NCBI GenBank assembly: GCA_003151935.1
Contig: PLYZ01000055.1
Location: 1,249 to 65,248 of the forward strand
DNA length: 64,000 nucleotides
Origin: Candidatus Dormiibacterota bacterium
Lineage (GTDB): Bacteria; Chloroflexota; Dormibacteria; Dormibacterales; Dormibacteraceae
Direction of reading: 5' to 3'
The position numbers were made by a program, and so were the translations under genes. The notes under the pieces are model-generated. The model was given only the letters and a program-made list of their open reading frames with translations, did not search any database and was not told the DNA's origin. This document shows, one piece after another, positions 15,896 to 64,000 of the stretch (position 1 is its first letter; every line of letters begins with the position of its first letter).

Positions 15896-15904
15896 CAGTT
15901 CAAG

Positions 15905-23521: not shown

Positions 23522-24186
23522 TTACCTCCCCGCTTGCCGGGGAGGTCCCGCCGAAGGCGGGGGTGGGGGGGTGTCCGCTGTCTTGCTGAAGGGCAGCAGC
23601 ACCGTGTCGATGATGATGCGAAGGTCGTCGCGGAACGTGCCCCGGCGCACGTACTCCAGCCCCAGGCGCATCTTCTCGGGCCGGATCAGCTCGGCGTAGG
23701 CGCGGTCGGGATCTTCGTGCCCGGCGAGGATCTCGCCCTCGTTGTGAAACCGCAGTGACGACCAGTCGGTGATCCCCGGCCGCACGTTCAAGATCTCGCG
23801 CTCCTCGGCTGTATACCCCGCCACCTCGTCGGCCACCTGTGGCCTCGGACCGACAAAGCTCATGTCGCCCTTGAGCACGTTGTACAGCTGCGGGAGCTCG
23901 TCGAACTTGTAACGGCGCAGCACGCGCCCGGTCCTGGTCAGGCGAGGGTCGTCGTTGGGGGTGTTCGGCCCACCCACGCGGTCCGCGTCGGTGACCATGG
24001 TCCGGAACTTGTACATGCGGAACTCGCGCCCGCCGCGGCCGACGCGGCGCCCTGAATAGACTGCGGGTCCATCGCGGTCCAGCTTGATTCGTGCCCAGAT
24101 CCCGAGCGTGATCGGAGAAGAGAGCACCAGTCCAACCGAGGCGAGCGCGATGTCGAACGCGCGCTTGGCGGCCGGGGATCGGCTCA
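23522..24186 (-). CDS. Undecaprenyl-phosphate sugar-1-phosphate transferase (bacterial sugar transferase), 5' end uncertain
   Basis: KRAFDIALASVGLVLSSP...MYKFRTMVTDA...YKFDELPQLYNVLKGDMSFVGPRPQ...VRPGITDW; no clear start near the DegT stop. Confidence 0.82.
23524..23570. repeat. REP-like palindromic element at the 3' end of the sugar-transferase gene
   Basis: ACCTCCCCgcttgccGGGGAGGTCCCGCCgaaGGCGGGGGTGGGGGG. Confidence 0.75.
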
Positions 24187-43361: not shown

Positions 43362-44408
43362 CTACGGGCGGACCGGTTTGGGGACCGCCGTCTCGAAATC
43401 ATGTGACGCCAGGCCCCAGTCGTCGCCGTTGATCGGGTGGAAGCCGCGGCCTCCATGCACCATCCGGCGCGCCAGGCTCCGGTACGCCCGAGTGCTCAGG
43501 TAGGGGACGCCCGCTTCGTCCAGGCGGTCGAAGAGGCGGTTCGATTCGGGCGTCCAGCCCGAGCCCTCTCCGTGCTCCAGGTGATACGCAACCATCGGCG
43601 GCGGCAGGTTCACCATGTCGGTTCCGCCCGCATACGCCTGGAAGAGCGCCACGCCGTCCATGTGCCACGAGTACGCGGGCCATTCCGGATAGCCGTGCAT
43701 GGCAAACCAGATCTCGCGGCTCGTAAGCGTGAAGTCCCCACACCCGCTGGTGTGGAGCTTGGGCAGCCTCAGGCGATCCCAGGCGGCCGCGGTCTTGCGA
43801 GTCAGCTCCTTGACAGCCGGCTTGATCGCCAGCCTGTCGCGCCCATGCGGCCGCCGGACAACCGGAGGCCGGCCGTTCGGATAGTGCAGGCCATCGAGGC
43901 GGTGCTCACGCAGCACAGGGAGCGCGCGGCATTCGGCCGGCGACGGCAGGTTGGGTCCGCCGAGCTCCGCCAGCACGTCATGCCGGTCGACTCGATACAT
44001 GGCGTTGGGCTTGAGCCCCGTTTGCAGGAAGGAGAAGAGCTCGTCGCTGAAGAGGATGTCGATATTCGTGGCGAGGACAAAGGGCGCGGTCGAGCGCCGG
44101 ATGCCGACGTTCTTGCCGATCATCTGAAACAGCGGCAAGCCATCGGCGTGCGGAAAGGTCCGGTGCAGCTCGGGCGGAACGGTGATGACCGACGGCTGGA
44201 AATGCTCGCTTGGCTCCCAATCGAGCGCCTCGACCAGGGGAGGGTGGTCGGCGGGAGGATTCCATTCCACCAGGATCAGCTCGACCGGCAGCCGGAAGCG
44301 CTCTGCCTGCTCCGCCAGGCCTTCGACGAACAGCTGCATTCGGGCGAGCAGGTGGCCTCCGTGCGCGTCATTGCGCGACGTCGCGACCACGCTGAGCAAG
44401 GGGGTCAT
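43362..44408 (-). CDS. Glycosyltransferase-like protein, paralog of 39732-40745
   Basis: ATG at 44408 (MTPLLSVVATSRNDAHGGHLLARMQLFVEGLAEQAERFRLPVELILVEWNPPADHPP...); the upstream part of the 597-aa ORF is out of frame with the flippase. Confidence 0.85.
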   Translation of the reverse strand: MTPLLSVVATSRNDAHGGHLLARMQLFVEGLAEQAERFRLPVELILVEWNPPADHPPLVEALDWEPSEHFQPSVITVPPELHRTFPHADGLPLFQMIGKNVGIRRSTAPFVLATNIDILFSDELFSFLQTGLKPNAMYRVDRHDVLAELGGPNLPSPAECRALPVLREHRLDGLHYPNGRPPVVRRPHGRDRLAIKPAVKELTRKTAAAWDRLRLPKLHTSGCGDFTLTSREIWFAMHGYPEWPAYSWHMDGVALFQAYAGGTDMVNLPPPMVAYHLEHGEGSGWTPESNRLFDRLDEAGVPYLSTRAYRSLARRMVHGGRGFHPINGDDWGLASHDFETAVPKPVRP

Positions 44409-45670
44409 TGGACCTCGCGCGCGCTCAGCTCGCCGGTCTTGTGCCACAGCACCCAGTAGTAAGCCGCGGCGAGGAACGTCTGTGAGAAGACGTTGGCCCA
44501 GGCCGCGCCGAGGCCCGCGAACGGAGGGATGAGGATGAGATTCGCGATCACGTTGACGGCGAGCGAGCCGGCCGTCGCTGCGGCGAACCGGCGGGGATCT
44601 GTGACACCGGTAAGCCCCTGGATGGCAATCGCGGCGGCCCCGGGCAGGGTCGAGATCATGAGCACGACCACGATCGGCGCCGCGACGGCGTAGCGCTGGC
44701 CGAACAGGAACGAAAGCATGGGTTGGGCGAAGACCGCGAAGACAAGCGCCGCGGGCAGGGCCAGCAACACGCTCTGGGCGGCGACACGCTTGCCCGTTGA
44801 AAGCCGCGTGCGGGGATCCTGCCCTGCCGCCTCCGACAGCGCGAGCTGACCGAGGGCCGAGGGCAGCAGCAAGTTCATATCCTGGAAGCGATAGCTGGCG
44901 CCGTAGATGCCCGCCGCCCCAGTGCCGCGCAGCAGACCGACCAGGTAATTGTCGATCCGCTGGTAGACCGAGCCGACCGTGGTCGCCAGCGCGAACGGCG
45001 CCGCTGCCCTGATCGAAAGGCTGGGCCTGGGAACGCCCGGCAGCTCGGCCACCGACTTGCCTCGGACGTACAGATAGTCGATCACTCCGACGGCCAAACC
45101 TACGGCCGAGTAGGAGACCGTCACGGCAATCAGGCCGCCTCCGGCGAGCAGCCACAGGCCGCCTCCGGCCAGCACGACCGCGCGTGAACCGATCTCACTG
45201 ATCACCTCCATGCTTATGTTTCCCGTCGCTCGGTAACCTGTGATTGTCGGGTTGTAGAATCCCGCGCCCACGATGCTCAGGCTGAACACCAACGGTACCG
45301 TGAGATTGCGATCGCGTGTCGCGAGCACGTAGAGCAGCACCATGAGAATGGCGCCGGCCACCGACAGGAGCACCCTACGGGCGATCACAGCGTCGAGCAC
45401 GGCGCGGCGGATGCGGCCGGTGTCGACGACGTCGCGGGCAAGGAGGAACTGCAGGCCGAAATCGCTGAGCGAGGTCATGATGACGACCAGCGCGAGCGCG
45501 ACGCTGAACTGGCCGAACTCCTCGAGGGTGAGACGGCGCGCGACCAGGATCACCCACACCGCCGACAGCAGTGAGGCGACACCGCGGCCGAACGACAGCG
45601 CCACCGCGCGGCCGACCAGTAAGTGCCCCGAGAGCAGCCTTATGCGAGCGGTGTTCAGGAAATCGATCAA
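44405..45670 (-). CDS. Oligosaccharide flippase (MATE/Wzx-like)
   Basis: Likely TTG start (LIDFLNTARIRLLSGHLLVGRAVALSFGRGVASLLSAVWVILVARRLTLEEFGQFSVALALV); multi-TM. Confidence 0.82.
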   Translation of the reverse strand: MIDFLNTARIRLLSGHLLVGRAVALSFGRGVASLLSAVWVILVARRLTLEEFGQFSVALALVVIMTSLSDFGLQFLLARDVVDTGRIRRAVLDAVIARRVLLSVAGAILMVLLYVLATRDRNLTVPLVFSLSIVGAGFYNPTITGYRATGNISMEVISEIGSRAVVLAGGGLWLLAGGGLIAVTVSYSAVGLAVGVIDYLYVRGKSVAELPGVPRPSLSIRAAAPFALATTVGSVYQRIDNYLVGLLRGTGAAGIYGASYRFQDMNLLLPSALGQLALSEAAGQDPRTRLSTGKRVAAQSVLLALPAALVFAVFAQPMLSFLFGQRYAVAAPIVVVLMISTLPGAAAIAIQGLTGVTDPRRFAAATAGSLAVNVIANLILIPPFAGLGAAWANVFSQTFLAAAYYWVLWHKTGELSAREVQ

Positions 45671-46557
45671 GCGCCGTAACGGCGGGCGAATCGCCAGCTC
45701 CGCAAGCGGGTCCTGATTCGCCGGCTCGCGCGCAGCGTGTGACTGAGCAGCTGCCGAGGTCGGGCCATCCGGTACTTCCATCCCACCGCGGGCCCGATCT
45801 TTCCCTCCGCGCTCATCGTCCACGTCGCGTGCGCGATCGTGTAGTAGTTCGTCCAGTGCTTCACCCAGCTGCGGTTCGTACGGGCCTCGTCGCCATTCCA
45901 CACGTCGATTGCCGGCACGTGGCCGTAGTCGTGGTTCTGGTGGATCAAGGTCACGTACTCGGTCGCGTCGATCAACGGAATGTCGGACGCGACCGTGTTC
46001 CACAAGAGCCAGTTGTCGTACGCGGTCCTTCCGATCGCAAACGGGGGCATCTGGTCGTACTGGCCTCGCGGAAACATGAAGAGGTCAATCGCGCCGGCCG
46101 AGTGCAGCTTGCCGCCGGCGACGGCGCCGGGGGCCCAACGTGTCTCCCATCCCTGGTCAAACTCGAGCAAAGTCCTGATGTCGACGTCATGCCGCTGCGC
46201 GACGAGGAGGAATCGCTTCGACCAGTCTTGCGCGAGTCGCGCCGCCTGCAGGGTGCGCTGCGTGAGGATGATGTCGGCGCTGATGAATGCCAGCACGTCG
46301 CTGTTCGCGAGCGTGTCTGCCTGCCTGAACATTCCCGACACGAGGGGCGTGCCGTACGAGTTGGCCTCGACATCCTCCACCAGCTCCACGTCAAACCCGC
46401 CGACCACCTCGGCGGTGCCGGCTTCGTTGCAGAATAGAATGATCCTCGGCTTGGGACGCAACGACAGCCAGCTTCGGATCGCGTTCTGCTGGATGATCGC
46501 TACATGACCTTTGAATGCCTTGGGTGCTGAGAAGATCGTGAGCGGCGCGGAGTCCAC
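45667..46557 (-). CDS. Glycosyltransferase-like protein
   Basis: Probable GTG start (VDSAPLTIFSAPKAFKGHVAIIQQNAIRSWLSLRPKPRIILFCNEAGTAEVVGGF); DVLAFISADIILT. Confidence 0.7.
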   Translation of the reverse strand: MDSAPLTIFSAPKAFKGHVAIIQQNAIRSWLSLRPKPRIILFCNEAGTAEVVGGFDVELVEDVEANSYGTPLVSGMFRQADTLANSDVLAFISADIILTQRTLQAARLAQDWSKRFLLVAQRHDVDIRTLLEFDQGWETRWAPGAVAGGKLHSAGAIDLFMFPRGQYDQMPPFAIGRTAYDNWLLWNTVASDIPLIDATEYVTLIHQNHDYGHVPAIDVWNGDEARTNRSWVKHWTNYYTIAHATWTMSAEGKIGPAVGWKYRMARPRQLLSHTLRASRRIRTRLRSWRFARRYGA

Positions 46558-47248
46558 CGACGCGCCCGGGCGCTGGGACAACGCCGCTACCTTCTTACGC
46601 AAGGTGCACCGGCGCGCTCTGCGCGAAACGGTCGTGAGGTGGGCGAGATCACGCAAGTATCGCCGCATCTGGATCGACGTAGGGGCGCACGAGGGGGAGC
46701 TGACGTTTCCATTCGCGGCCGCGGATTCATCGCTGCTCGTCTACGCCTTCGAGCCCAACCTTCATGCGGCGAGCCGGATCATGGGCTGCCTGCGCAACTA
46801 CGTCGTCCTTCCGATCGCGGTCTCGGAGCGCGACGGCCACGCCGAGCTCAACCTCAACGCATACGAGCAGTCGAGCTCGCTGCTGCCGGCCGACGAGGAG
46901 GGGGTCAAGGAATGGGTCACGGAGCAGAAGTTCGAGGTCCTGGGCACCGTGACCGTCCCGACCATGCGGCTCGACACCTTCATGAATGACGCGGGAATCG
47001 AATTCGTCGACTACCTGAAGATCGACGCCCAGGGGCTCGACCTCGAGGTCGTCAAGTCGGCCGGGGACCGGCTCAGGGACGTGGCCAAGGTCCAACTCGA
47101 GGCGACGACTTCGTCCTATCGTCAGTACGAGGGTGCTCCTGGAAAATCGGTGATTATCGAGTACATGGATTCGATGGGCTTCCGCCTGGCCGGCGAGGAA
47201 ATCCAATCCCACGGTCAGGAGGCCAATCTTACTTTCTTGCGAGTCTAA
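46511..47248 (+). CDS. FkbM-family methyltransferase (start uncertain)
   Basis: RRIWIDVGAHEGELTFPFAAADSSLLVYAFEPNLHAASRI...TVPTMRLDTFMNDAGIEFVDYLKIDAQGLDLEVVKSAG. Confidence 0.85.
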   Translation: MNALGAEKIVSGAESTDAPGRWDNAATFLRKVHRRALRETVVRWARSRKYRRIWIDVGAHEGELTFPFAAADSSLLVYAFEPNLHAASRIMGCLRNYVVLPIAVSERDGHAELNLNAYEQSSSLLPADEEGVKEWVTEQKFEVLGTVTVPTMRLDTFMNDAGIEFVDYLKIDAQGLDLEVVKSAGDRLRDVAKVQLEATTSSYRQYEGAPGKSVIIEYMDSMGFRLAGEEIQSHGQEANLTFLRV

Positions 47249-47341: not shown

Positions 47342-49042
47342 CTAAGAACCCCGCAGATAGAGGTCGACGGTAAGCGACACCCCCTTGTACTTGCCCAGCG
47401 TGTGCGGGCCGGCGGGGGGGAGATCGGAGAACTGCCAGGACCGGTCATAGACGTACCCGCTGCCGGGACTCCTCACCCAGCTCGCCAGCGCCCTGAGGTA
47501 GGGCTGCCGGACGGGCGGGCAGAAGAAGACCTGGGCGACCTGCGTCACGTCCTCTCGATACACGACGATGGCCGGGCACCTGCTCGCCGTGGCGATGTAG
47601 TCGCCCGTCGTTGACGCGGGGTCGACGTCGATCGGCGTCGACTGCGGCGACGTCCCATCGGAGTTGATCATCAAGAGCTCGAGCGAAGCGGGCCACCCGG
47701 GACCAGGCGCATAGGAGAAGCACTGGCCGGCCGAGACGTGGCGGTTCAGCTCGGCGGCGACGCCGGAGGTCACGGACAGGAGCTCGACGTTGGCCCTGTG
47801 CTCATCGAGCGGCCAGCTGAACAGAGAGAAAGCCCCCAGCGCGTAGACGATGACCACGTAAACGCCCACCACGGCCAGCAACCGCTGCGAGAAGCGGGGT
47901 AAGGCCAGCGGCCATCTCGCTGCCGCGAGGCGTGACGCGCCCGCCACGAAGAAGATCCACACCGCCAGGCTCAGCCACTCACCGACGTGCGGGTTCTTGT
48001 TGGACGTCGCGGTGAACGCTCCGTAGAACAGCACCACGAGCCCGGCATAGATCCACTCCGCCCGCCCGAGCCGCCGGCGCACCAGGGCGACCGCCGCCAC
48101 CAGCGCGCCCACGATGACGGGCCACGCCTCGAGCTGGCCCAGCTGGCTCGGGATGCGCACCAGGTAGTACGTGGCGCTTTCGAAAAGGCCGAGGTTCATC
48201 GCGTAGGCGCCCTTGTAGGTGACCGCTGCCTCATAGAAATAGGTGACGGTCGTGGAGATCCCGTGCCCGAGGACGGCCCAGGGAAGCAGCAGCAGCGCGA
48301 GAAAGCCCACGGCCAGCGCCGTCGTGCGACCCACGCCTGGCGTCCGCCGGTTCCAGAACCAGATCACCGCGAGCGCGGCGAACCACGTGACCAGCGCCAC
48401 CGGCCCGGTCGACGGTTTCATCAGCACGGCGGCGGCCGCGAACGCGGCCGAGAGCAGGTAGCTCGGCCATCGCGGCGAATCTGCGAGCTCAGCAAGCAAT
48501 GCGACGGCCCACAGCACCAGCACCACGGCGAGGAAGTCGGGGCGCAGGTCGTCCAGGCCCCAGTTGTCGTTGTAGTTGGCCTGCCCGCTCAAAAACTCCC
48601 AGGAGCTCGAACGCACGCCCGCGCTCACAAGCGGCAGCAGCGCGGTCAGCGCCACCGCGGCGATCGCCAGCGTCCGGTTTGCGCGGCGACGAACGATCCA
48701 GTAGACGAGGACGAGGAGCAAGGCGATCGGCCAGAACCTCGCGGCGAACGCCTGCCACGTGCCGTCTCCGAGGACCAGGTAGTGCGCCGTGAGGACTGCG
48801 GTCCACCCGGGCGCGACGTTGTTCAGAGCATGCAGCGCCGTCTTCAGGTGCAGCCCCGCGATGAGGTGGTAGGGCGCCTGCGCATAGAAGAGGTAGCCGA
48901 CCCCGTCGTAGTCGGGCGGCCGCGCGAGGTAGCCCTCCTGGGCGCTGAACCAGAGGTCGGCCGCGAGCGCCACCGCGGCCACGACGCAGCAGAGAAGGAT
49001 CGCGCGAAGGCTGGGCCGGCGATAAGAGTCGATCGTCTTCAC
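47342..49042 (-). CDS. Polytopic membrane protein (GT39/GT87-like), tandem paralog 1
   Basis: GTG start VKTIDSYRRPSLRAILLCCVVAAVALAADLWFSAQEGYLARPPDYDGVGYLFYAQAPYHLIAGLH; multi-TM. Confidence 0.75.
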   Translation of the reverse strand: MKTIDSYRRPSLRAILLCCVVAAVALAADLWFSAQEGYLARPPDYDGVGYLFYAQAPYHLIAGLHLKTALHALNNVAPGWTAVLTAHYLVLGDGTWQAFAARFWPIALLLVLVYWIVRRRANRTLAIAAVALTALLPLVSAGVRSSSWEFLSGQANYNDNWGLDDLRPDFLAVVLVLWAVALLAELADSPRWPSYLLSAAFAAAAVLMKPSTGPVALVTWFAALAVIWFWNRRTPGVGRTTALAVGFLALLLLPWAVLGHGISTTVTYFYEAAVTYKGAYAMNLGLFESATYYLVRIPSQLGQLEAWPVIVGALVAAVALVRRRLGRAEWIYAGLVVLFYGAFTATSNKNPHVGEWLSLAVWIFFVAGASRLAAARWPLALPRFSQRLLAVVGVYVVIVYALGAFSLFSWPLDEHRANVELLSVTSGVAAELNRHVSAGQCFSYAPGPGWPASLELLMINSDGTSPQSTPIDVDPASTTGDYIATASRCPAIVVYREDVTQVAQVFFCPPVRQPYLRALASWVRSPGSGYVYDRSWQFSDLPPAGPHTLGKYKGVSLTVDLYLRGS

Positions 49043-50784
49043 CTGGCCTGCGCGCGCACGTACAGGTCGACCGTCAGCGTCAGCCCCTGGTAATTGCCCA
49101 GGGAGTGGGGACCGTTGGACGCGAGGTCGGTGAACACCCAGCTGCGGTCGAGCGTGTACCCGCTGCCCGGGCTGCGCACCCAATCGGCGACCGCGCGCAG
49201 ATAAGGCTGGCGGACCGGATACGCGATGAACTGCTGCGCCACCTGGGTGATGTCCTCGCGGTAGACGATGACGGCGGGGCACCTGCTCGCCAGGGTCACG
49301 TAGTCGGCGACCTTCATCGACGGGTTGACGTCCACCGGGGTCGAGCTGGGCGCCTTGCCGCTGGAGTCTGTCATGTAGTACTCGATCGAAGCGGGCCACC
49401 CCGGCCCAGGCGCGTACGCGAAGCATTGATCAGAAGACACGTAGCGCCCCATCTCGTGCGCGATCTGGGTCGTGACGCTCAACAGCTGAGCATTAGACCG
49501 CTGCTCGTTGGCCGGCCAGTTCGCCAGAGCAAATGCACCGAGGGCATAGACAACCAACAGGTAGGCTGCTGTGGCTCCAAGCACAAGAGATCCTCCCGTG
49601 CCCGCACGGGAGGTGGGCGTGCGAAGCACAAACCACCTCGCCGCAATCAGCCTCGACATGCCCGCCACGAAGAAGATCCACAGCGGCAGCGCGACCCAGA
49701 ACCCGACCAGGGTGTTCTTGTTCGAGATCACCGTGAAGGTTGCCCAATAGAGCGCGAACAGTCCGCCGTAGATCCACTCAGCTCGCGTGAGCCGCCCCCG
49801 CAGCAGCGCGACCGCCGCGAGGATCGAGCCGGCGATGATCGCCCAGACCTCGACCACCCCGAGCTGCTCCGGTAGGCGGACGGCGTAGTACGTCAGCGTG
49901 TCCAGCAGGCCAAGGCCCAGGTTGTAGGTACTGTGAAACGTCACCGAGATCTCGTAGTAGCGCGACACGGTCCCGGAGATGCCGCCCTTGATCGCCCACG
50001 GGCCCAGCAGCACCGCCAGCACGACCAGACCCAGCGCGCTCAGGCGCAGGGCCGACGGCTGCTTGCGGTTCCAGAACCAGACCACGACAAGGGCCAATCC
50101 CCAGGCGAGCAGCGAGAGGGGGGCGGTCGAAGGCTTCGCAAGCACCGCGGCAGCGGCGAACGCCGCCGACACCACGTAGGTCGACCGCCTCGGCGCCCGG
50201 TGGTGCTCCACGAGCGGGACGATCGAGCACAGGACCATGACGATCGAGAAGAAGTCGGGCCGGAGATCCTCGAGGCTCCAGAGCTCCCCGTAGTTCGCCT
50301 GGCCGCTGAAGAACTCCAGGGAGCTCGCCCGCACCGCGGCGCTGACCACCGGCAGCACGGCCGTCAGCCCCACCGCCGCCATGGCCACCGACCGGGTGCT
50401 GCGCGTGCGCGCGATCCAGTAGACGACCACCAGCAGCGGCGCCACCGCCCAGAAACGCGCCGTGAACGCCTGCCACGTCCCATCGCCGAGGATGAGCTGC
50501 TGGAACGCCATGGCGGCGATCCACAGCGGCGCAAGGCTGCTGTTCAGCTCAGAAAGAGCGGCCCTCGGATGCAGCCCGATCAGGAGGTGGGCCACCGATC
50601 TCGCGGTCCCCAGATAGCTGACCCCGTCGTAATCCGGCGCCCTGGAGAGATAGCCCTCCTGGGCGCTGAACCAGGCGTCCACAGCCACCACAGCCGCCGC
50701 CACGGCGCCGCAACCCAGCACCGACCAGAGGCTGGGCCAGCGGGACGGCTGTGCCGCCTCCGGCCAGGCTACCTCGGCAGGCAC
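49039..50784 (-). CDS. Polytopic membrane protein, tandem paralog 2
   Basis: VDAWFSAQEGYLSRAPDYDGVSYLGTARSVAHLLIGLHPRAALSELNSS; colinear similarity with 47342-49042. Confidence 0.75.
   Translation of the reverse strand: MPAEVAWPEAAQPSRWPSLWSVLGCGAVAAAVVAVDAWFSAQEGYLSRAPDYDGVSYLGTARSVAHLLIGLHPRAALSELNSSLAPLWIAAMAFQQLILGDGTWQAFTARFWAVAPLLVVVYWIARTRSTRSVAMAAVGLTAVLPVVSAAVRASSLEFFSGQANYGELWSLEDLRPDFFSIVMVLCSIVPLVEHHRAPRRSTYVVSAAFAAAAVLAKPSTAPLSLLAWGLALVVVWFWNRKQPSALRLSALGLVVLAVLLGPWAIKGGISGTVSRYYEISVTFHSTYNLGLGLLDTLTYYAVRLPEQLGVVEVWAIIAGSILAAVALLRGRLTRAEWIYGGLFALYWATFTVISNKNTLVGFWVALPLWIFFVAGMSRLIAARWFVLRTPTSRAGTGGSLVLGATAAYLLVVYALGAFALANWPANEQRSNAQLLSVTTQIAHEMGRYVSSDQCFAYAPGPGWPASIEYYMTDSSGKAPSSTPVDVNPSMKVADYVTLASRCPAVIVYREDITQVAQQFIAYPVRQPYLRAVADWVRSPGSGYTLDRSWVFTDLASNGPHSLGNYQGLTLTVDLYVRAQAR
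49592..49629. repeat. REP-like palindromic element inside paralog 2
   Basis: CCTCCCGTGcccgCACGGGAGGTGGGCGTGCgaaGCAC. Confidence 0.6.
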
Positions 50785-51650
50785 AGGACGTTCACACCGG
50801 TGAGCTTGTCGTCGACCAGCGGCTCAGCCGTCCCTGACGGACCGAACACGCGAATTTCATAGTCATAGGACCGCACCAGCTGCAGCAGCTCGGACGCGCT
50901 TGTTCCGAGCTGGCGCAAGGAAGGGTCGTACGCCTCCGCGACGATGATCGGCCGGAACTTCCGCAGCGTTTCCCGCGCCCCCTGCAGCACGGAAGTCTCG
51001 GAACCTTCCACGTCGATCTTCAGCAGGTCGAGCCGGGTGAGCCCCTGGGCGAAATCGTCCAGACTCATCAGGTCCACCTCGATTGAGCCGGCGCGTGTGT
51101 CGGCCGAGTAGGCAAACCCACCGATGGTGTTGTGGCCGGGGTGGTCAGATCCGGCCACCTCGAGGGTCGCCTTGCCCGCTTCTCGACCCAACGCCTGAGA
51201 GTGGACGTGCACATTCTTCAGTGCATTGATCGAGACGTTGGCCAGCAGCCTCTCCCGATCCCTCGGGCTTGGCTCGAAAGCGTGGACGCTGCCGCCTTCA
51301 CCGGCGAGGCTGGCTGCCATGAGCGTGAAGATCCCCGCGTTCGCTCCGACGTCGACGACGCACATGCCAGGACCGATGAGCCTGGACATCGCGAACATCT
51401 CGTTGGGTTCGTAGCGGCCATCGACATACGTGCACTGGCTTATGTCGCCCAAGAGGTGATGATTGAATCGCAGCCCAAAGTACCAGCCCGTGGTGACGGG
51501 CCCGTCATAGCCGCGTGATTGGGCCAGCCTCCAGATCAGCCTGCGCGTCCAGGCGCCTGGATCCTTTCGATCCCACTGGCCGAAATACCAGCCGGGAACA
51601 GGTTCGAGGCGGGGGACATGGAAAGCAGACCTCGCCGCGAGATCAAGCAC
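50769..51650 (-). CDS. FkbM-family methyltransferase
   Basis: GMCVVDVGANAGIFTLMAASLAGEGGSVHAFEPSPRDRERLLANV...LTRLDLLKIDVEGSETSVLQGARETLRKFRPIIVAEAYD. Confidence 0.9.
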   Translation of the reverse strand: MLDLAARSAFHVPRLEPVPGWYFGQWDRKDPGAWTRRLIWRLAQSRGYDGPVTTGWYFGLRFNHHLLGDISQCTYVDGRYEPNEMFAMSRLIGPGMCVVDVGANAGIFTLMAASLAGEGGSVHAFEPSPRDRERLLANVSINALKNVHVHSQALGREAGKATLEVAGSDHPGHNTIGGFAYSADTRAGSIEVDLMSLDDFAQGLTRLDLLKIDVEGSETSVLQGARETLRKFRPIIVAEAYDPSLRQLGTSASELLQLVRSYDYEIRVFGPSGTAEPLVDDKLTGVNVLCLPR

Positions 51651-51752: not shown

Positions 51753-54023
51753 TCAGCTCACTGTGACGGGCGTGCTGGCGACGGTGTCATAAGGGCGCGA
51801 GCTGTTCGCATCCTTGACCCAGACCCCGAAGTACACCGTGCCGGCGGCGGCGCCGGTGCTGTTCCAGTTGTAGGTCGTGCTCGTCGAGTAGCCCTGCACC
51901 ACCTGCCAGGTGCTGGATGTGGCCGGCCGCATCACGAACTGGTAGAGCGGGCTGGGATCGGTGCAGCCCGATGCAGCGCCGGTGATGGTGACGTGGGTTC
52001 CGGAGCCACGAGCCACCGAGGCGGGCGCGGCGGAGACGGTGACTGAGGCGCAGGAGACCGACTGGACCACGAAGGGGGTGCTGGCGACCGCGTCATACGG
52101 GGCCGCGCTGTTCGCGTCCTTGGCCCAGACCCCGAAGTAAACGGTGCCCGCGGCGGCGCTGGCGCTGTTCCAGGTGAAGGTGGCGCCGGTCGAGTAGGCC
52201 TGCGCGACCTGCCAGTTGCTCTGCGAAGCCGGACGCATGACGAACTGGTAGAGCGGGTTGGAGTGCGTGCAGCCGGCGGCGACCGCGGTGAAGGTGATAT
52301 GGGTGCCCGACAGCTGAGGCGAGGCCGGCGAGCTGGAGATGCCAACCGAGCCACAGGAGCCAGGGTTGATCAAATAAGGGACGCTGGCCACGGTGTCATA
52401 GGCGGCTGGGCTGGTCACATCCCTGGCCCAGACCCCGAAGTAAACGGTGCCGTTGCCGGCGCCGGCGCTGTTCCAGTTGTAGGTGGCGCTCGTCGAGTAG
52501 CCCTGCACGACCTGCCAGGTGCTGGACGAGGCCGGACGCATGACGAACTGGTAGAGGGCGTTTGGGCAGCCCGTGGCGCCGGCGGTGAAGGTGACGTGGG
52601 TGCCCGGGGCCTGCGGCGACAAGGGCGCCGCGGTCTCAGTCACTGAAGCGCAGGCGGCAGGAGTAGCCGTGAACGTGGTGGTCGTGAAGGTGTCATATCG
52701 GCCGAGAGCGTCGGTGGTGTCGCCCGCGCTGCTCGAGTCGCGCGCCCGAGCCATGAAGTAGTACCGGCCCAACACCGGGGCGGTGGTCCTCCAGCTGAAC
52801 GTCGCGCTGCTCGAGTAGTCCTGACCCAGATTCCAGGTGGTCGATCCAGGCAGCTGCACCCAGAACTGGTAGAGCGGGTGGGGGCAGCCCGTCGAGCTGG
52901 ACGTGAACTGGACGGTCGTGCCGTAAGGGCCGGGCGACGCCGGCGAGGACGTCAGGTTTGCGGAGCCGCAGTGGCCGGGAATGACGGCGTTGGTGGTCAG
53001 GCTGTCCGTGCCGTCAGCGTCCGTGGCCGTCACGGTGAACGTGTAGCTGGTGCCCGGCGTCAGGTTGTTGAACGTGGTGGAGGTTGCGGTCGCAGGCAGG
53101 TTCTGAGTCACGCTGGCCGGCGTACTGGTCACGGTGTAGCCGGTGATCGGCTTGGCAGTTGGTTGGCAGGTCTGCGCCGGCTGCCAGGTGACCGTCGCGC
53201 TGGTGAAGCCGTTCACGGCGACAGGGTCGGGACCCATAACGGGCGGGCTGGGCAGCGCGCTCGCGTAGGACTGGGCAAGGCCCATGTAGTACGTCCAGTC
53301 CCAGTTCGGCCCAGGGTCGGTGTGATGGTCTGAGCCTCCGTAGAGACCGGGGTTGTTGGGGTCGGGGACCTGGTAGTGGCCGATGACGTGGTTGCGGTCC
53401 ATCGGCACGCCCCAGCGCGAGCAGATCGACGCGATCAGGTGCGCACTGGCCTGGTACATCGCGGTCGTGTACCAGGTCGGCTGAGCGTACGCATAGCCCT
53501 CGTGCTCGATGCCGATCGCGCGAGTGTTGTAGTCCCAGTTGCCCGCGTGCCATGCGATGTCTTGCTCGTGCACCATCTGCGTGATCTGGCCCGCGTCGGA
53601 GACCACGTAATGCGCCGACGCCGCGAAACTGGGGTCCTGAAAATCCTGGATCGCTGTCGCGTACGTGCCTTCGGTGTCGTGGATGACGATCAGCTGCACA
53701 GGGTAGTCATGCGGCCGGTTTGCCCACGAGAAGTTGTTCAAGTTGGCCGGATTCCAGGTTGCCAAGGGATAGTCGGGAGTACTGCTGACGGCTTGCGCAC
53801 CGCCGGCTGACGCGGCCGAGCTCTGCGCCGGCAACGGCTGCGGCGGCAGCGTGATCTGCTGGCCCGAGCTCAGCGCGCTCTGCATCACCGAGGTGAAAGA
53901 CGGCGTGGCGGCATAGACGCTTGCTTGAGGGGTCAGCGCGACGATCACAGGCAAGACGCACAGCCACCCAAGCTGCCTGCGCATCCCAGGGACGATACAG
54001 GAAGAACCGGTTCTAAATGTCAA
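51753..54023 (-). CDS. Secreted N-acetylmuramoyl-L-alanine amidase (Amidase_2-like) with FnIII-like domain and four ~100-aa repeats
   Basis: VQLIVIHDTEGTYATAIQDFQ...SAHYVVSDAGQITQMVHEQDIAWHAGNWDYNTRAIGIEHEG...VIGHYQVPDPNN; FnIII-like TGYTVTSTPASVTQNL...LTPGTSYTFTVTATDADG; repeats YQFVMRPASSSTWQVVQGYS. Confidence 0.9.
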   Translation of the reverse strand: MTFRTGSSCIVPGMRRQLGWLCVLPVIVALTPQASVYAATPSFTSVMQSALSSGQQITLPPQPLPAQSSAASAGGAQAVSSTPDYPLATWNPANLNNFSWANRPHDYPVQLIVIHDTEGTYATAIQDFQDPSFAASAHYVVSDAGQITQMVHEQDIAWHAGNWDYNTRAIGIEHEGYAYAQPTWYTTAMYQASAHLIASICSRWGVPMDRNHVIGHYQVPDPNNPGLYGGSDHHTDPGPNWDWTYYMGLAQSYASALPSPPVMGPDPVAVNGFTSATVTWQPAQTCQPTAKPITGYTVTSTPASVTQNLPATATSTTFNNLTPGTSYTFTVTATDADGTDSLTTNAVIPGHCGSANLTSSPASPGPYGTTVQFTSSSTGCPHPLYQFWVQLPGSTTWNLGQDYSSSATFSWRTTAPVLGRYYFMARARDSSSAGDTTDALGRYDTFTTTTFTATPAACASVTETAAPLSPQAPGTHVTFTAGATGCPNALYQFVMRPASSSTWQVVQGYSTSATYNWNSAGAGNGTVYFGVWARDVTSPAAYDTVASVPYLINPGSCGSVGISSSPASPQLSGTHITFTAVAAGCTHSNPLYQFVMRPASQSNWQVAQAYSTGATFTWNSASAAAGTVYFGVWAKDANSAAPYDAVASTPFVVQSVSCASVTVSAAPASVARGSGTHVTITGAASGCTDPSPLYQFVMRPATSSTWQVVQGYSTSTTYNWNSTGAAAGTVYFGVWVKDANSSRPYDTVASTPVTVS

Positions 54024-54044
54024 GGTTCAGCGGATAAAAATGAA

Positions 54045-54070
54045 GCGCCGCCGGGATCTCCCGGCGGCGC
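54045..54070 (-). terminator. Rho-independent terminator-like hairpin downstream of the repeat-only protein gene
   Basis: Perfect 11-bp stem GCGCCGCCGGG-atct-CCCGGCGGCGC; on the minus strand followed by TTCATTTTTATCC. Confidence 0.75.
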
Positions 54071-54105
54071 CCCAGATCGAGGTCAGGTCCTCGGTTACTT
54101 CGCTA

Positions 54106-55188
54106 TTAGGTCACCGGGACGCCAACGCTCGCGACGTTGTCGTAGCCGGCGGAGCTGGTGCTGTTGACGTCTTTCACATGGACTCCGAGGTACACGGTGC
54201 CGATGGCCGCGCCTGTGCTGTTCCAGTTGTACGTGGCGACGGCACTATAGGCCTGGACCAGCTGCCACGTGCTTGACGAGGCGGGTCGGATCCAGAACTC
54301 GAAGAGTGGCGAGTTGGTGCAGGTGGCCGCGGCGGTGGCGATGACGTGCGTGCCGCTGGTGTTGCTGTGCACGACGGTGGTCGGGACCGGGGTAATGGTC
54401 GGCACGCCGCACACAGATGCGTACACGGTGACGGGGGTGCTGGCGACGACGTCATAACCCGCGGAACTCGTGCTGTTCGCGTCTTTGATGTGGACTCCGA
54501 GGTACACGACGCCGGGCAGCGCGCCCGAGCTGTCCCAGTTGTAGGTCGCCAGGGCGCTGTAGGCCTGAACCAGCTGCCACGTGCTTACCGAGGCAGGCCG
54601 AATCCAGAACTCGTAGCGCGGCGTGGTGGTGCAGGTTGTGATGGTGGCGGTCGCAATGACGTGGGTGCCGCCAGGGTTGGGGTCGGCGTTCACCGATGTC
54701 GGGGCGGCGGTGATGCCGGGCCCACTGCATACAGAGGGCGGTGCAGCGGTCACGGTGACCGGCGTGCTGGCGACGGCGTCATAGGCCGCCGGGCTGGTGG
54801 CGTCTTTCACGTGGACCCCGAGGTACACGGTGCCGACGGCTGCGCCCGTGGTGTTCCAGTCATAGGTCGCCGTGGTGCTATACGCCTGAACCAACTGCCA
54901 GGTGCTTGAAGTGGAGACGCGCAGCCAGAACTCGTAACGCGGGCTGCTTGGGCAGCCGCTGGCGGTGGCGGTGGCGATGACGTGAGTACCGCCGCTCGTG
55001 CTGTACACCACGGTTGTGGGCACCGCCGTGATGCCCGCTCCCCCGCAGTAAGCAGTCGTCAGAAAGATGTGCAGAGACGCGCCACCAGACGTTGAAGCAA
55101 GCGCGGACGGAGCGATGGCGGCCGCGCCCAACAAAACCGTGACGATCGCCGCCGGGATCAGGCCCCGAGATCTAAGTCGTTTGATCAA
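54106..55188 (-). CDS. Secreted repeat-only protein (three ~100-aa modules)
   Basis: Signal peptide then three copies of ...GTHVIATA...YEFWxRxxSxSTWQLVQAYS...TYxWxxxGAxxGxVYLGVHxKDxxS. Confidence 0.85.
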   Translation of the reverse strand: MIKRLRSRGLIPAAIVTVLLGAAAIAPSALASTSGGASLHIFLTTAYCGGAGITAVPTTVVYSTSGGTHVIATATASGCPSSPRYEFWLRVSTSSTWQLVQAYSTTATYDWNTTGAAVGTVYLGVHVKDATSPAAYDAVASTPVTVTAAPPSVCSGPGITAAPTSVNADPNPGGTHVIATATITTCTTTPRYEFWIRPASVSTWQLVQAYSALATYNWDSSGALPGVVYLGVHIKDANSTSSAGYDVVASTPVTVYASVCGVPTITPVPTTVVHSNTSGTHVIATAAATCTNSPLFEFWIRPASSSTWQLVQAYSAVATYNWNSTGAAIGTVYLGVHVKDVNSTSSAGYDNVASVGVPVT

Positions 55189-57164: not shown

Positions 57165-58601
57165 GTGGAGCTGAGCAGATATATCCAGGTCCTAAGGCAA
57201 CGCCTGTGGATGGTCATCGCCTGCCCGCTCATCGCCGCGCTAGCGGCGGGGATCGTCAGCTTCCTGCTCCCCCCGGTTTATGAAGCGCACGTTTCGCTGT
57301 ACATAAAGCCGGCCCAGCCAATCTCATCCATCGATCCCACGACGGGGCAGATCACCAGCGACCAGGTCCTGCGCACCTACGCCGACTGGATGACCCAGCG
57401 GCCAACTCTCGACTCGGTCGACACGCAGCTTGGCCTGGGGCTGCGCTACGAGGATCTGCTCAAAAAGATCACGGCGACGCCCCAACCCAACACTCTCCTG
57501 CTGGACGTCGCGGTGCAAGACACGAATGCCACGGTCGCCCGCGACATCGCCAACCAGCTGGTGGCCGATTTCATCGACACGGTCAAGAAGACCCAAGCAG
57601 CAGCGACCCAAGGAGCAAATGCTCAGCCGGTAGACAACCTGGTCATCACCGCGCCGGCCGTGACTCCCGACAAACCCGTCTCGCCCAATAAGACCCTGAA
57701 CGTCACCATTGCCTTCGCCGCAGGACTCCTGCTCGCCCTTGGCCTTGCGTTCCTGCTCGATTACCTCGACCAGTCGATCAAAGGCGACGACGACCTCATC
57801 GAGCGTCTGGGCCTGATCCCGATCGGCCACATTGCATGGATTCCGGTGGGCAAAGGCAAGCGCAGCGAGCTGGTCGCCCTCGATACGCAGTCCCCATCGT
57901 CAGAGGCTTTCAAGGCCCTTCGGACGGGCGTGTTGTTTTCCACTATCGAGCAGCAGCTGAAGGCCATCGTCATCACCTCGGCCGAGACGGGCGAGGGCAA
58001 ATCGCGAACGGCGGCGAACCTGGCTATCGCCCTGGCGCAGGCGGGCCACAAGACGCTTCTGATCGATGCGGACTTCCGGCGCCCCTCGCAGCACCGAATC
58101 TTCGGCAAGATCCGCAACATCGGGCTGTCGAACCTGATCCTCCAGGACGCCACCGAAAGTGATGCGATCACCTCGGTAGATGGCGTGCCCAACATGTGGC
58201 TGCTCCCCTCCGGTCCGACGCCACCGAATCCTTCGGAACTTCTGGGGTCACCCCGAATGCTGGAGGTGATGGCGAAACTCTGGCACGACTTCAGCTATGT
58301 GATCGTCGACACGCCGCCTGTCAACGCGGTGACCGACTCAGCCATCCTCGCGGCCTCGGCGAACGCGACGATCCTGGTGGTCGAGCAGGGAAAAACCACA
58401 TTCCCAGCGCTGAAGCACGCCAAGGAGATGCTCGAACGCGTCAAGGCCAATACGATCGGCGCGGTGATGAATAAAGTCCGCGCCTCGAGCGGTGCTTACT
58501 CCTACGGGTATGGCAACTACCTGCCGTCCCCCAACGGGCACCCCGCGAAGGATCGGGCAGCCTCGGAATCGGAGCGCGAGAGCCACCCGGCCGAGACCTG
58601 A
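57165..58601 (+). CDS. Wzc/CpsCD-like polysaccharide chain-length / BY-kinase fusion protein
   Basis: Wzz-like N terminus (ELSRYIQVLRQRLWMVIACPLIAALAAGIVSFLLPPVYEA), Walker A-like TSAETGEGKSRTAANLA, TLLIDADFRRPSQH, YVIVDTPPVNAVTDS, C-terminal YSYGYGNY. Confidence 0.88.
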   Translation: MELSRYIQVLRQRLWMVIACPLIAALAAGIVSFLLPPVYEAHVSLYIKPAQPISSIDPTTGQITSDQVLRTYADWMTQRPTLDSVDTQLGLGLRYEDLLKKITATPQPNTLLLDVAVQDTNATVARDIANQLVADFIDTVKKTQAAATQGANAQPVDNLVITAPAVTPDKPVSPNKTLNVTIAFAAGLLLALGLAFLLDYLDQSIKGDDDLIERLGLIPIGHIAWIPVGKGKRSELVALDTQSPSSEAFKALRTGVLFSTIEQQLKAIVITSAETGEGKSRTAANLAIALAQAGHKTLLIDADFRRPSQHRIFGKIRNIGLSNLILQDATESDAITSVDGVPNMWLLPSGPTPPNPSELLGSPRMLEVMAKLWHDFSYVIVDTPPVNAVTDSAILAASANATILVVEQGKTTFPALKHAKEMLERVKANTIGAVMNKVRASSGAYSYGYGNYLPSPNGHPAKDRAASESERESHPAET

Positions 58602-60434: not shown

Positions 60435-61824
60435 ATCAACCGTGCGTGCGCGCACCCTCAGCTGGGGTCGCGTTCGCCTTGTGCTCATTCTCTTCGATTT
60501 CAGCGCTGTCCTCTTGGCTCTTGAGGCCTCCAACATCGCGCGCTATTCGCTCGGCTGGAGCCTCAACGGTGACATCTCAAGCCTGGACCCGCTGGTCCCT
60601 CCCTTATGTCTTGCGATCGCGCTGTTGAGCTACCGCGTCTCCGATCTCTACTCGATGCAGCTCGTGGGCTCGGGCCTGAACGAGTACCGGGCCATCGTCA
60701 TGAACACCACCTTTGCCTTCGCCGCCATCGTGATCGTCGGATACATCGATCAAGGCTTGCACATTTCGCGCGCGTTCCTGCTGCTGTTCTGGTTGGCGGC
60801 CATCGTGCTGGTAGGCGCAGAACGCTTCATCGCAAGGCGGGTCGTTCGACGTTGGTCCGCATCACGAGGCGGCCTGCGTCGGGTGCTCGTGGTAGGCGCG
60901 AATGAGCAGGGGGTCCAAATCGCCGAGGAACTGTCAAGGAACCCGGCGGCGTGCAGCGTCGTCCTGGGCTTCCTTTCGGAGTATCGACCAGTTGGCCAAT
61001 CGACGAACGGCAGCTTCAAGATCTTAGGCGAACCGATGGAGCTTTACGAGGTTGCCAAGCGCGAGGGCGCAACGCATGCGGTCGTGGTGGAGTCGTCACT
61101 CAGCTGGGAAAGTCTGCGTTTCATCGTGCGGTCGATGCACGCCAGCCAAACACCTCAAGTTCTGCTGGCGCCGGGGCTGTTTGACGTTTCGGCGACCCCG
61201 CTGCGGTCCACCCAATTGGGTCGCGCCCTACTCCTGGCGCCCAGGGCGACGCGCATCTCTGGCTTTGAAGCGTTCCTCAAGCGCACGTTTGACCTCGGCG
61301 TTGCGATTCCCGTGCTGGTGCTGACCCTCCCGCTACAAATCGGGATCTGGGGCTACCTCAAATCGGCGGGTGCTGCGAGGCCGGTTGAAGTACTCCGTGC
61401 TTCAGGTTTCAGGGGCGCGCCGATCACTATCTGGCGGTTTGCCGGCGGAGCTCGACTACGTGCAAGTCACTTGACGCGACTGCCCTCACTCTGGCAGGTA
61501 ATCAGAGGCAACGCGAGCCTGGTCGGACCTCGGCCAGTGCTCCTCGAAAACACTGGTCCTTATGAGCGCTGGGGCGATGTGCTCGCCGCTCTGAAGCCGG
61601 GGTTCATCGGACCGTGGTGGCTTTCGGGGCACGGCCGCCCGGCTGAGGTGAATGAAGAGATCGAAGCAGACCTGAACTACGCGCGCTCGTATTCGATCTG
61701 GCTGGACCTTCGCATCTTGCTCGCGGTGGGGTGGGCATTACTGACCAGCTGGCGGCACGCCGCCACCCCCGGACAACAACGACACGGCATCGGCGCGCCG
61801 GTGAACGCGGCGGACGAAGACTAG
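60421..61824 (+). CDS. Polyprenyl glycosylphosphotransferase-like protein with divergent catalytic region
   Basis: Four TMs plus CoA-binding-like domain (RRVLVVGANEQGVQIAEELSRN) and C-terminal KRTFDLGVAIPVLVLTLP...LTRLPSLWQVIRGNASLVGPRPVLLENTGPYERW. Confidence 0.8.
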   Translation: MSRTESTVRARTLSWGRVRLVLILFDFSAVLLALEASNIARYSLGWSLNGDISSLDPLVPPLCLAIALLSYRVSDLYSMQLVGSGLNEYRAIVMNTTFAFAAIVIVGYIDQGLHISRAFLLLFWLAAIVLVGAERFIARRVVRRWSASRGGLRRVLVVGANEQGVQIAEELSRNPAACSVVLGFLSEYRPVGQSTNGSFKILGEPMELYEVAKREGATHAVVVESSLSWESLRFIVRSMHASQTPQVLLAPGLFDVSATPLRSTQLGRALLLAPRATRISGFEAFLKRTFDLGVAIPVLVLTLPLQIGIWGYLKSAGAARPVEVLRASGFRGAPITIWRFAGGARLRASHLTRLPSLWQVIRGNASLVGPRPVLLENTGPYERWGDVLAALKPGFIGPWWLSGHGRPAEVNEEIEADLNYARSYSIWLDLRILLAVGWALLTSWRHAATPGQQRHGIGAPVNAADED

Positions 61825-62972
61825 CTTCGGATACGTAGGGTCCCGTTGCGGCTGATGATCAACTCGACCGCTTCGGAGATGTCTTTCACGGTGTGGTCGG
61901 CTCCGTTCTCAGCCTTATCACCGATCCTACCGTCCGTGACGAGGATGCTGATGCAGCCCGCCGCCCGCGCTGCTTGGGCATCTGTCTCCCAATCGCCAAT
62001 CATCACGGCCGAGTCGAGGTCGACGCCATATCGGTCTCGCGCCTGGAAGAAAAGTCCGGGAGCCGGCTTGCGGCACTCGCAGCCGTCCTCCGGGGTATGC
62101 GGGCAGACAAGGAACGCCTCTATCTCCCCACCGAACCGCCGCGCCTCATCAGCTAGGCGTGAGTGGATCCTGTCCACTTCGGCCAAAGTCGTTAGCCCGC
62201 GCCCGATCGCCGATTGATTCGTTACCACAAAGACTCGATGACCCTGCTTCGACAACGTGCCGAGGGCCTCTAGCGCGCCGGGCAGGACCTCCATCTCCAA
62301 GCGGCTCTTCACGTAGTCATCTCGGTTTTTGACGATTACGCCGTCGCGGTCAATCAGCACCGCGGGCTTGCGAGCGGACCGTCCGGCATCGAGTAGCAGC
62401 TTCGTCAACAGGTGTTCGAATAGCAGGTGCCCAGTTTCGACATGCCCGTAGTCGTAGGACGGCATGTGTACGTAGTGGTCGCAGAGATCGCGGGTGGGGC
62501 CGCCTGCGAGGCCTCCGAAAGCAATCGTCCTAACGCCGATCCGCTTGGCGACCTCGATTGCCCTGATGAGGTTGGGCGAGTTGCCTGAGCACGAGATCAG
62601 GATCAGAAGGTCGCCCGCTCGCGCGTGTGTTCTGAGTTGGGCGGCAAATACGTTCTCGTAGCCAGTGTCGTTAGCTATGGCGGTGAGTGCCTCAACGTTG
62701 TCAGTCAAGGCGTGCGCCCGCAGCGGCTTGCGACCGGGTATGAACGCTTGCTTCGATAAGTCATTTGCCATGTGGGAGGCCGTGGACGCCGACCCACCGT
62801 TGCCGACGATGAAGATGGCGCGGTCTTCTTCCCATGCACTCCAAAGCACGTCGAGGCAGACGGCAAGCTGCTGAGGGTCGACGCCACGAATAGCCGCGAC
62901 CATCCCGTCGAGGTAAGCGTCAATTGAGCCGAGTGGACGGCTCGCGAGTTTGGACGCCGGTGTTAAGCTCAA
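61821..62972 (-). CDS. GmhA-GmhB-like fusion: SIS-domain phosphoheptose isomerase + HAD heptose-bisphosphate phosphatase
   Basis: N: IFIVGNGGSASTASHMANDLSKQAF...LILISCSGNSPNLIRAIEVAK; C: KPAVLIDRDGVIVKNRDDYVKS...VFVVTNQSAIGRG...CPHTPEDGCECRKPAPGLF...MIGDWETDAQAARAAG. Confidence 0.92.
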   Translation of the reverse strand: MSLTPASKLASRPLGSIDAYLDGMVAAIRGVDPQQLAVCLDVLWSAWEEDRAIFIVGNGGSASTASHMANDLSKQAFIPGRKPLRAHALTDNVEALTAIANDTGYENVFAAQLRTHARAGDLLILISCSGNSPNLIRAIEVAKRIGVRTIAFGGLAGGPTRDLCDHYVHMPSYDYGHVETGHLLFEHLLTKLLLDAGRSARKPAVLIDRDGVIVKNRDDYVKSRLEMEVLPGALEALGTLSKQGHRVFVVTNQSAIGRGLTTLAEVDRIHSRLADEARRFGGEIEAFLVCPHTPEDGCECRKPAPGLFFQARDRYGVDLDSAVMIGDWETDAQAARAAGCISILVTDGRIGDKAENGADHTVKDISEAVELIISRNGTLRIRS

Positions 62973-63178
62973 ACTGCGTGCCTAATGGGGTGAGTCAGCC
63001 TTGGCAACAGACCTCCAATAAATGAAAGCCTAGATCGGTCGGTGGCGGGCAAGCCCTGAACCCCTATGTTTCGAGTGGCGGAGGTCGATAACCTTGGAGG
63101 CGCCGAGGTTGACAGGTCTGGGAGGTGGTTGTCAAGCATGAGATGCAGCGGTGGGTCCTCTTGCATTGGCGAGGGCCG

Positions 63179-63261
63179 ACGCTGCGACAGGAAAGCGTAA
63201 GGCAAATGGAGGCTAGCGCCAACCAAACTACTCGCGCTTTGGGCCTTCTGCGTCGCAGCGT
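63179..63261 (+). other. Long imperfect hairpin in the 5' region of the terminal sugar-transferase gene; candidate structured leader
   Basis: ACGCTGCGAC (63179-63188) pairs perfectly with GTCGCAGCGT (63252-63261); inner GCGtAAGGC pairs with GCCTTcTGC. Confidence 0.45.
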
Positions 63262-63331
63262 TTAGTGGTACCCCGGCGGCAAGACACCGCCATTGTCAGC
63301 CGGGTGCCTTCGCAGAGTTTGGAGGAGAAGA

Positions 63332-64000
63332 ATGTGCGCGGTGGCAGCGGGTAGCGGAGGGAGCGTTGGCTTCAACCAGCCTCGCGGGAGTCGGGCCATG
63401 GACGTCGCCCTTAGTCTCATTGGCCTGATTGCGGTCAGCCCCCTGCTCGTCGCCGCTTGCTTGGGTATCTTGGTAGAAGACGGTTGGCCAGTCATTCATC
63501 GCAGGAAGGTTCTCGGATTGGGTGGGTCTGAGTTCAAAGCGCTCAAACTCAGAACGATGCGGGCCGATGCAGACCAGTGGATCGTGCAGGAGCCGGCACT
63601 GTACGAGCAATACCGGGCGCATACGAAGTTGGACAAGGACCCCCGTGTCACGCGACTGGGACGTCTGCTGCGCGGGCTCCATATCGATGAGTTACCACAG
63701 CTGGTGAACGTGCTCGCTGGGCAAATGAGCATTGTCGGACCTCGGATGATTCACCCATCAGAACTCGCCAGGTTCGGGTCATTTGGGACCGCACGTCTAA
63801 GTGTGCGTCCTGGAATTACCGGGCTGTGGCAGGTATCCAAAACTAGCTATGGCTACGACGAGAGAATAGCGCTCGATCGATTCTACATAGAGAACCATTC
63901 TTTGGTCCTCGACCTACGAATAGCTCTACTAACCATCCCGTCGATATTTGGGTGGAGAACTAACCTCCTTCCGACGCCACCAAATCGCCTTGGTGGCAAC
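63332..64000 (+). CDS. Undecaprenyl-phosphate sugar-1-phosphate transferase (3' end beyond window)
   Basis: GGAGGAG RBS then MCAVAAGSGGSVGFNQPRGSRAMDVALSLIGLIAVSPLLVAACLGILVEDGWPVIHRRKVLGLGGSEFKALKLRTM...LHIDELPQLVNVLAGQMSIVGPRM...VRPGITGLWQVS; open at window end so absent from ORF track. Confidence 0.88.
   Translation, partial: MCAVAAGSGGSVGFNQPRGSRAMDVALSLIGLIAVSPLLVAACLGILVEDGWPVIHRRKVLGLGGSEFKALKLRTMRADADQWIVQEPALYEQYRAHTKLDKDPRVTRLGRLLRGLHIDELPQLVNVLAGQMSIVGPRMIHPSELARFGSFGTARLSVRPGITGLWQVSKTSYGYDERIALDRFYIENHSLVLDLRIALLTIPSIFGWRTNLLPTPPNRLGGN

Follow-up and report, generated by a model that had tools for sequence, protein, structure and literature searches.

The 64,000-nt window analysed here, from Candidatus Dormiibacterota (assembly GCA_003151935.1, contig PLYZ01000055.1), encodes three secreted proteins whose C termini are tandem arrays of a module of about 100 amino acids with two cysteines. 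In related genomes, one type of C-terminal array is usually used per genome and other repeats, one of them a lectin, stand at the same place on the proteins; the module is therefore most likely an exchangeable tag. Specifically, the array probably serves as a glycan-binding address tag by which secreted enzymes are retained on the polysaccharide of the cell's own surface. The direct basis of this reading consists of homology, architecture, a predicted fold, co-conservation of the cysteines, replacement of arrays, agreement of array types within genomes, linkage to a polysaccharide locus and the membership of one array type in a lectin family. The window is part of a 111-kb contig (C74) of a 2.9 Mb genome in 97 contigs, here called G000.

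Array types behind orthologous proteins

Relatives of the GH18 domain of one window protein, P0001, are found in 33 of the 61 genomes searched, with differing C-terminal arrays behind it. Besides the window module, about seven array types, unrelated in sequence, occur on orthologues of GH18, amidase, CAP and beta-propeller proteins:

Type A: the window module, on the GH18 protein of G000, G025, G029, G010, G035, G026, G032 and G030
Type B: YGGLHPF repeats
Type C: NEW1-like immunoglobulin (Ig) repeats
Type D: WYDR repeats
Type E: PLL-like propeller (lectin)
Type F: LDTR repeats
Type G: FG-GAP-like repeats
Type H: one further array type

Ahead of type A arrays stand GH18, Amidase_2, CAP, TIG or PQQ propeller domains, in relatives also a phosphoesterase, or no other domain at all. 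Amidase, CAP and propeller proteins were searched for in the same genomes and their C termini typed with hidden Markov models (HMMs) of each type, which were used in place of single-linkage BLAST clustering, a procedure that merged types via shared linker domains. Many genomes proved uniform. Type A is found throughout in G000, G025 and G032 (A,A,A,A) and in G010, G026 and G030 (A,A,A), type C in G016 (C,C,C,C) and G019 (C,C), and other single types in G031 (E,E,E), G007 (H,H), G028 (D,D), G005 and G044 (both B,B). The sole deviation in G008 (C,C), G012 and G021 (both D,D) is a propeller homologue of type F, and G002 carries type B on GH18 and on one of its two CAP copies. Whole-genome searches with types B to E likewise revealed mostly exclusive use, with a few copies of type B also in most genomes of genus g9, and both A and E in G040.

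All told, 46 of the 59 within-genome protein pairs agree in type, against a mean of 11.0 and a maximum of 25 in 20,000 shuffles; the counts omit the second CAP copy of G002, whose type was not assigned. Leaving out the propeller family, whose members were matched at 38-45% identity and are probably paralogues, raises agreement to 28 of 29 pairs (7.3 when shuffled). The shuffles ignore relatedness, an effect that is reduced, though not removed, by keeping a single genome for each genus and type (35 of 46 pairs, against 6.9) and by testing genus g9 alone (19 of 20 pairs, against 9.0, a value reached by 2 of the 20,000 shuffles). Relatedness was taken from genus codes; of rpoB, G000 has only fragments and G025 almost nothing. 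Pairs on different contigs also agree, in 20 of 33 cases against 6.1, or 14 of 15 against 3.1 without the propeller family, and type concordance is therefore not mere linkage.

A tree of the GH18 domains indicates how the arrays may have moved. The type A domains of genera g1, g2 and g9 fall in one clade (100/99), type C unites g2 and g7, and type B unites g1, g4 and g9, so that enzyme and array often travel jointly across genera. That said, at least 13 type changes are required by the tree, and array exchange behind older GH18 lineages therefore occurred too.

Two further observations concern particular arrays. Three type C amidases have one type A module directly before the type C repeats (in L224:4106-7087 and L228:5355-7712, one such module is followed by three or four repeats), which looks like either the seam of an array replacement or a longer-standing, fixed segment of the amidase. 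Type B repeats (YGGLHPF...YWPGWDIARD; L223:525-2903, L220, L222 and others) lack any Pfam match and occur widely in the class, and they are possibly an undescribed propeller or repeat family.

Type E is, by sequence and modelled fold, a member of the Photorhabdus-type PLL/PHL lectin family: its structural model (predicted local distance difference test, pLDDT, 92) has PHL as best match in the PDB (E 1e-20, up to 39% identity, template modelling (TM) score 0.75 on the query), it also matches a PLL2 structure with O-methyl sugars, and its Pfam matches are the fungal fucose lectin and DUF346. A relative, PLL3, binds L-fucose and O-methylated glycans (PMC6943638). While type E is homologous to these seven-bladed lectins, the window module is not, and it is their functional counterpart at the same position only. 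Because a lectin replaces the module on the same proteins, it gives the best available hint that the array position is a glycan-binding place.

The module and its family

The proteins and modules of the window are as follows, the modules having been located with an HMM of the 11 copies and by their cysteine pairs:

18080-20527, plus strand: P0001, signal peptide, GH18 domain (18380-19285; motif intact) and four modules
19337-19630, plus strand: P0001 module 1 (Cys 420/448)
19631-19930, plus strand: P0001 module 2 (Cys 518/548)
19931-20230, plus strand: P0001 module 3 (Cys 618/648)
20231-20524, plus strand: P0001 module 4 (Cys 718/748)
51753-54023, minus strand: P0002, signal peptide, Amidase_2 (53307-53705), fn3 (53007-53204) and four modules (Cys pairs 352/380, 458/486, 557/585 and 658/687)
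52653-52970, minus strand: P0002 module 1; the three type C amidases keep a module at this place
52356-52652, minus strand: P0002 module 2 (predicted structure, pLDDT 97.2)
52053-52355, minus strand: P0002 module 3
51756-52052, minus strand: P0002 module 4
54106-55188, minus strand: P0003, signal peptide and three modules, no other domain; the open frame runs on to 55215 (Cys pairs 48/79, 154/186 and 260/290)
54730-55047, minus strand: P0003 module 1
54412-54729, minus strand: P0003 module 2
54109-54411, minus strand: P0003 module 3

The first-pass annotation had described the module in 4, 4 and 3 copies, and all of them are indeed clear homologues by HMM and cysteine pairs. Its three reading frames exist as placed, with the strand corrected to minus for P0002 and P0003. 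The GH18-like and Amidase_2 domains that it had named were recovered by a profile scan at 2.1e-20 (motif DGVNIDYE) and 2.4e-33, and a Pfam scan added the fn3 domain of P0002, which it had lacked. The N termini of all three proteins resemble Sec signal peptides, as judged by eye. Matches of the window proteins to DUF3303 and Kisspeptin were set aside as spurious local resemblance.

The 11 modules are 33-85% identical in pairs (mean 54%) and share the core Y-x-F-W...W-Q...Y-S...W-N...G-x-V/Y; the first cysteine opens the module, and the Cys-to-Cys gap is 27-31 residues. Each copy matches the HMM at 8e-38 to 3e-47, far beyond chance, though these matches hold by construction, the same copies having built the model. 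Beyond the window the HMM found 20 further copies, each at 8e-13 or better. Contig C74 has 31 modules in seven secreted proteins, each time as a C-terminal array, the others being TIG with five modules, CAP and TIG with four, a PQQ propeller with three and a second GH18 protein with eight. All module matches within G000 are confined to this contig.

Elsewhere the module is patchy, with matches in 18 of the 61 genomes and none in two genomes of the same genus. A contig search with six similar modules gave named matches in soil Chloroflexi and Ca. Dormiibacterota metagenome-assembled genomes (MAGs) and in two contigs (L038 and L053) of one Acidobacteria gp7 MAG, where the module is 60-62% identical; these two contigs are either misbinned or the result of cross-phylum transfer. 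A phage or plasmid origin was rejected, as tblastn gave no module match in phages, plasmids or viral contigs. Modules are 54% identical within a protein, 52% between proteins of one genome and 42% between genomes, a pattern that a shared ligand or sequence exchange would lead one to expect. The same homogenisation, together with the use of one type per genome and the existence of the repeat-only P0003, would also suit a like-with-like assembly in which modules of different proteins bind one another to form a species-specific surface lattice with P0003 as scaffold. We regard such self-association as very unlikely: the PLL-type arrays that replace the module are known for binding sugars, not lattices.

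The module had first been described as not assignable to a known family and perhaps novel, which did not hold up. On sequence similarity it is a divergent branch of the Y_Y_Y (PF07495) or triple-tyrosine (NF010681) repeat family, since of 17 single modules taken from G000 and its relatives 16 hit NCBIfam NF010681 ('triple tyrosine motif-containing protein') at 1e-8 or weaker, and Y_Y_Y is recognised in 29 of 41 module proteins, with a best value of 1.6e-28 in relatives. Literature on the 'triple tyrosine motif' yielded nothing on this functionally uncharacterised family. On single modules, 12 of 44 match Y_Y_Y at 0.01 or better. P0001 and P0003 have no Y_Y_Y match over the curated cut-off of 26.6 bits in the Pfam scan, and the match of P0002 (27.7 bits) falls at 315-340, within the fn3 domain and not in a module; a 1310-aa GH18 protein of the same contig reaches 32.4 bits inside a module. 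The best whole-protein score to NF010681 (PRK14081), 67.7 bits, is below the 842-bit equivalog cut-off, and the repeat unit alone is shared.

The module resembles Y_Y_Y and NF010681 in single-module similarity, tandem repetition, an Ig-like sandwich and tyrosines at three positions (columns 35, 52 and 70, conserved in 93, 89 and 82% of 280 copies, not matched residue by residue to the Pfam columns). It differs in its two invariant cysteines, and the window copies alone fall below the Pfam cut-off. The usual place of Y_Y_Y is after the beta-propellers of membrane sensor regulators, whereas the module proteins are secreted and have no sensor, membrane or kinase domains.

The predicted fold accords with this assignment, and with the Ig-like beta-sandwich that had been anticipated from the start. 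AlphaFold2 on a 44-row alignment gave a seven-stranded sandwich (pLDDT 97.2) whose best match among solved structures is the starch-adherence protein Sas6 (TM 0.74, E 8.6e-4), followed by fn3 domains; PDB sequence searches with the modules gave chance-level matches only. Judged by strand order, Cys3 and Cys31 of the model flank its first two strands, the arrangement that a disulfide calls for, and both cysteines are present together in 270 of the 270 copies spanning the site, which indirectly supports the putative disulfide proposed earlier. Since the model is an Ig-like sandwich with PDB matches of that fold, coronavirus main-protease matches in the PDB and a Pfam Peptidase_C30 match (12 of 41 module proteins, best 9.5e-14) were rejected as spurious local resemblance. 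The Peptidase_C30 profile match could mislead automatic annotation.

An Ig-like fold raises the question of whether the arrays are inert stalks, merely lengthening the protein or conferring protease resistance, in which case any stable repeats would be interchangeable. Many bacterial Ig repeats act in this way, the module has the fn3/Ig-like fold, many different repeats occupy the array position, and the Y_Y_Y domain of BT4663 is a membrane spacer and dimerisation element (PMC5121618). Against this, the arrays are terminal rather than interdomain, a PLL lectin (39% identity) is among the types that replace the module, and several aromatic columns of the module are more than 80% conserved, though some of these will be core positions. 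A stalk also leaves the agreement of types across contigs unexplained, and we think it unlikely.

The polysaccharide locus and its contig

The module genes had been placed inside a surface-polysaccharide locus, and the profile matches bear this out. Along with glycosyltransferases, the window includes:

30743-33262, minus strand: Wzy_C / O-antigen ligase-type protein (1.3e-14)
44405-46003, minus strand: Wzx-type flippase, Polysacc_synt (2.3e-16)
57165-58601, plus strand: Wzz and ParA/BY-kinase-like chain-length regulator (profile match)
50769-51650, minus strand: FkbM methyltransferase adjoining P0002 (3.3e-26)
46511-47248, plus strand: second FkbM methyltransferase (1.8e-19)
24184-25287, minus strand: DegT/DnrJ/EryC1 sugar aminotransferase (3.7e-95)
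14666-16858, minus strand: two NAD-dependent sugar epimerase/dehydratase genes (profile match)

Similar genes recur around the arrays of relatives. Among 110 neighbours of type A genes there are 13 methyltransferases, 7 Wzy_C, 6 DegT and 6 epimerase proteins and several glycosyltransferases, against 3 methyltransferases in 110 control proteins from other contigs, where Wzy_C, DegT and epimerase are outside the top 25 families. Another 110 neighbours, of type B to E genes, include 8 epimerase, 7 GT4, 5 GT2 and 5 Wzy_C proteins. Methyltransferases are a leading family near type A genes (loci L056-L075) and not near those of types B to E; perhaps type A recognises O-methylated sugars.

This setting bears on the idea that the array is a carbohydrate-binding module directing chitinase-like enzymes and amidases to the walls of fungi, plants or competitors. 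Foreign walls are possible substrates of GH18 and Amidase_2 enzymes, host glycans are bound by PLL-type lectins, and the relatives live in soil, according to their record titles. Still, the module genes sit in the cell's own polysaccharide locus, the same tag is also on CAP, propeller, TIG and repeat-only proteins, and its type varies among close relatives yet agrees within a genome, all of which makes such targeting decidedly improbable.

Two regions of the contig deserve mention in their own right. Adjoining P0002 on the minus strand are two overlapping long open reading frames without a Pfam match (47342-49426 and 49039-50784), 57-62% identical to a region of G025, with one main frame possible in the overlap. 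At about 61-81 kb of C74 (window 61000-64000 onward, L016), the guanine + cytosine (GC) content drops to 0.60 and the tetranucleotide make-up is strongly deviant; this stretch is likely a recent import inside the polysaccharide locus.

C74 itself is possibly contaminating sequence within the MAG. The contamination estimate for G000, 3.85% or about 113 kb, is near the size of the contig. Among the flanking metabolic genes on C74, the better-conserved ones share 86-91% identity with G025 (genus g2), while other G000 contigs have a median identity of about 87% to their congener G002 and of 74% to G025; tetranucleotide and GC comparison does not decide the matter. Even as a contaminant, C74 stems from this bacterial family. 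If it is one, the contrast between G000 and G002 falls, and those within g9 and g2 stand.

A proposed exchangeable address tag and its counterparts

Several points weigh against a tag for the cell's own polymer. PLL lectins are best known for binding foreign glycans, and array types B, C, D, F and H are without demonstrated binding function. The match to Sas6 leaves the Sas6 domain unspecified, and the spacer role of BT4663 points elsewhere. One type per genome has its exceptions in the propeller-family homologues of five genomes, in G004, G040, G060 and G015, and in one CAP copy of G002. Finally, G000 and G025 are largely collinear across their type A regions, and the two neighbourhoods are therefore not independent.

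For the address tag, we infer three things separately: glycan binding by the module, the own polymer as its ligand, and a joint change of tag and polymer. The module proteins would be secreted via Sec, and each module is predicted to fold with one disulfide. Several weak sites in the tandem C-terminal array would bind the surface polysaccharide multivalently, the ligand presumably being the product of the locus that houses the module genes. Such binding would hold wall-remodelling enzymes and surface proteins to the envelope with no need for a covalent anchor, and in related genomes a different tag type would serve the orthologous proteins. A stronger version, in which each genome has one 'address code' out of about eight unrelated glycan-binding array types, replaced jointly with the polysaccharide locus so that tag type predicts polymer chemistry, is conceivable and we hold it only tentatively.

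Neither the domain family nor the principle of swappable wall-binding domains is new, the latter being known from Firmicute surface proteins and phage endolysins (PMC5817068, PMC7551664). Choline-binding (CWB1), CWB2, SLH and SH3b/GW repeats (PMC5817068) also anchor amidases and other surface proteins non-covalently through tandem arrays, whereas the arrays described here are of several unrelated types that substitute for each other within a genus or family. CWB1, CWB2, SLH, SH3b and LysM were all absent from the Pfam matches to module proteins of the window and of its contig, and from the leading families of relatives. Modular endolysins, with exchangeable C-terminal wall-binding domains (PMC7551664), likewise pair a constant catalytic domain with a variable binding domain. 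In contrast, the present arrays are chromosomal, several proteins share one type, and there is no phage or viral match. From a light literature search, we know of no report of several unrelated arrays interchanging across a chromosomal surface-protein set of close relatives.

Interchangeable arrays on orthologous enzymes, among them one from an established lectin family, amount to a natural exchange experiment, and one that offers a clue to what several uncharacterised repeat families do, triple-tyrosine repeats included. They suggest an anchoring principle able to change along with the surface polysaccharide, may allow surface chemistry to be read from sequence, and bear on how these uncultured soil bacteria retain their secreted proteins at the cell.

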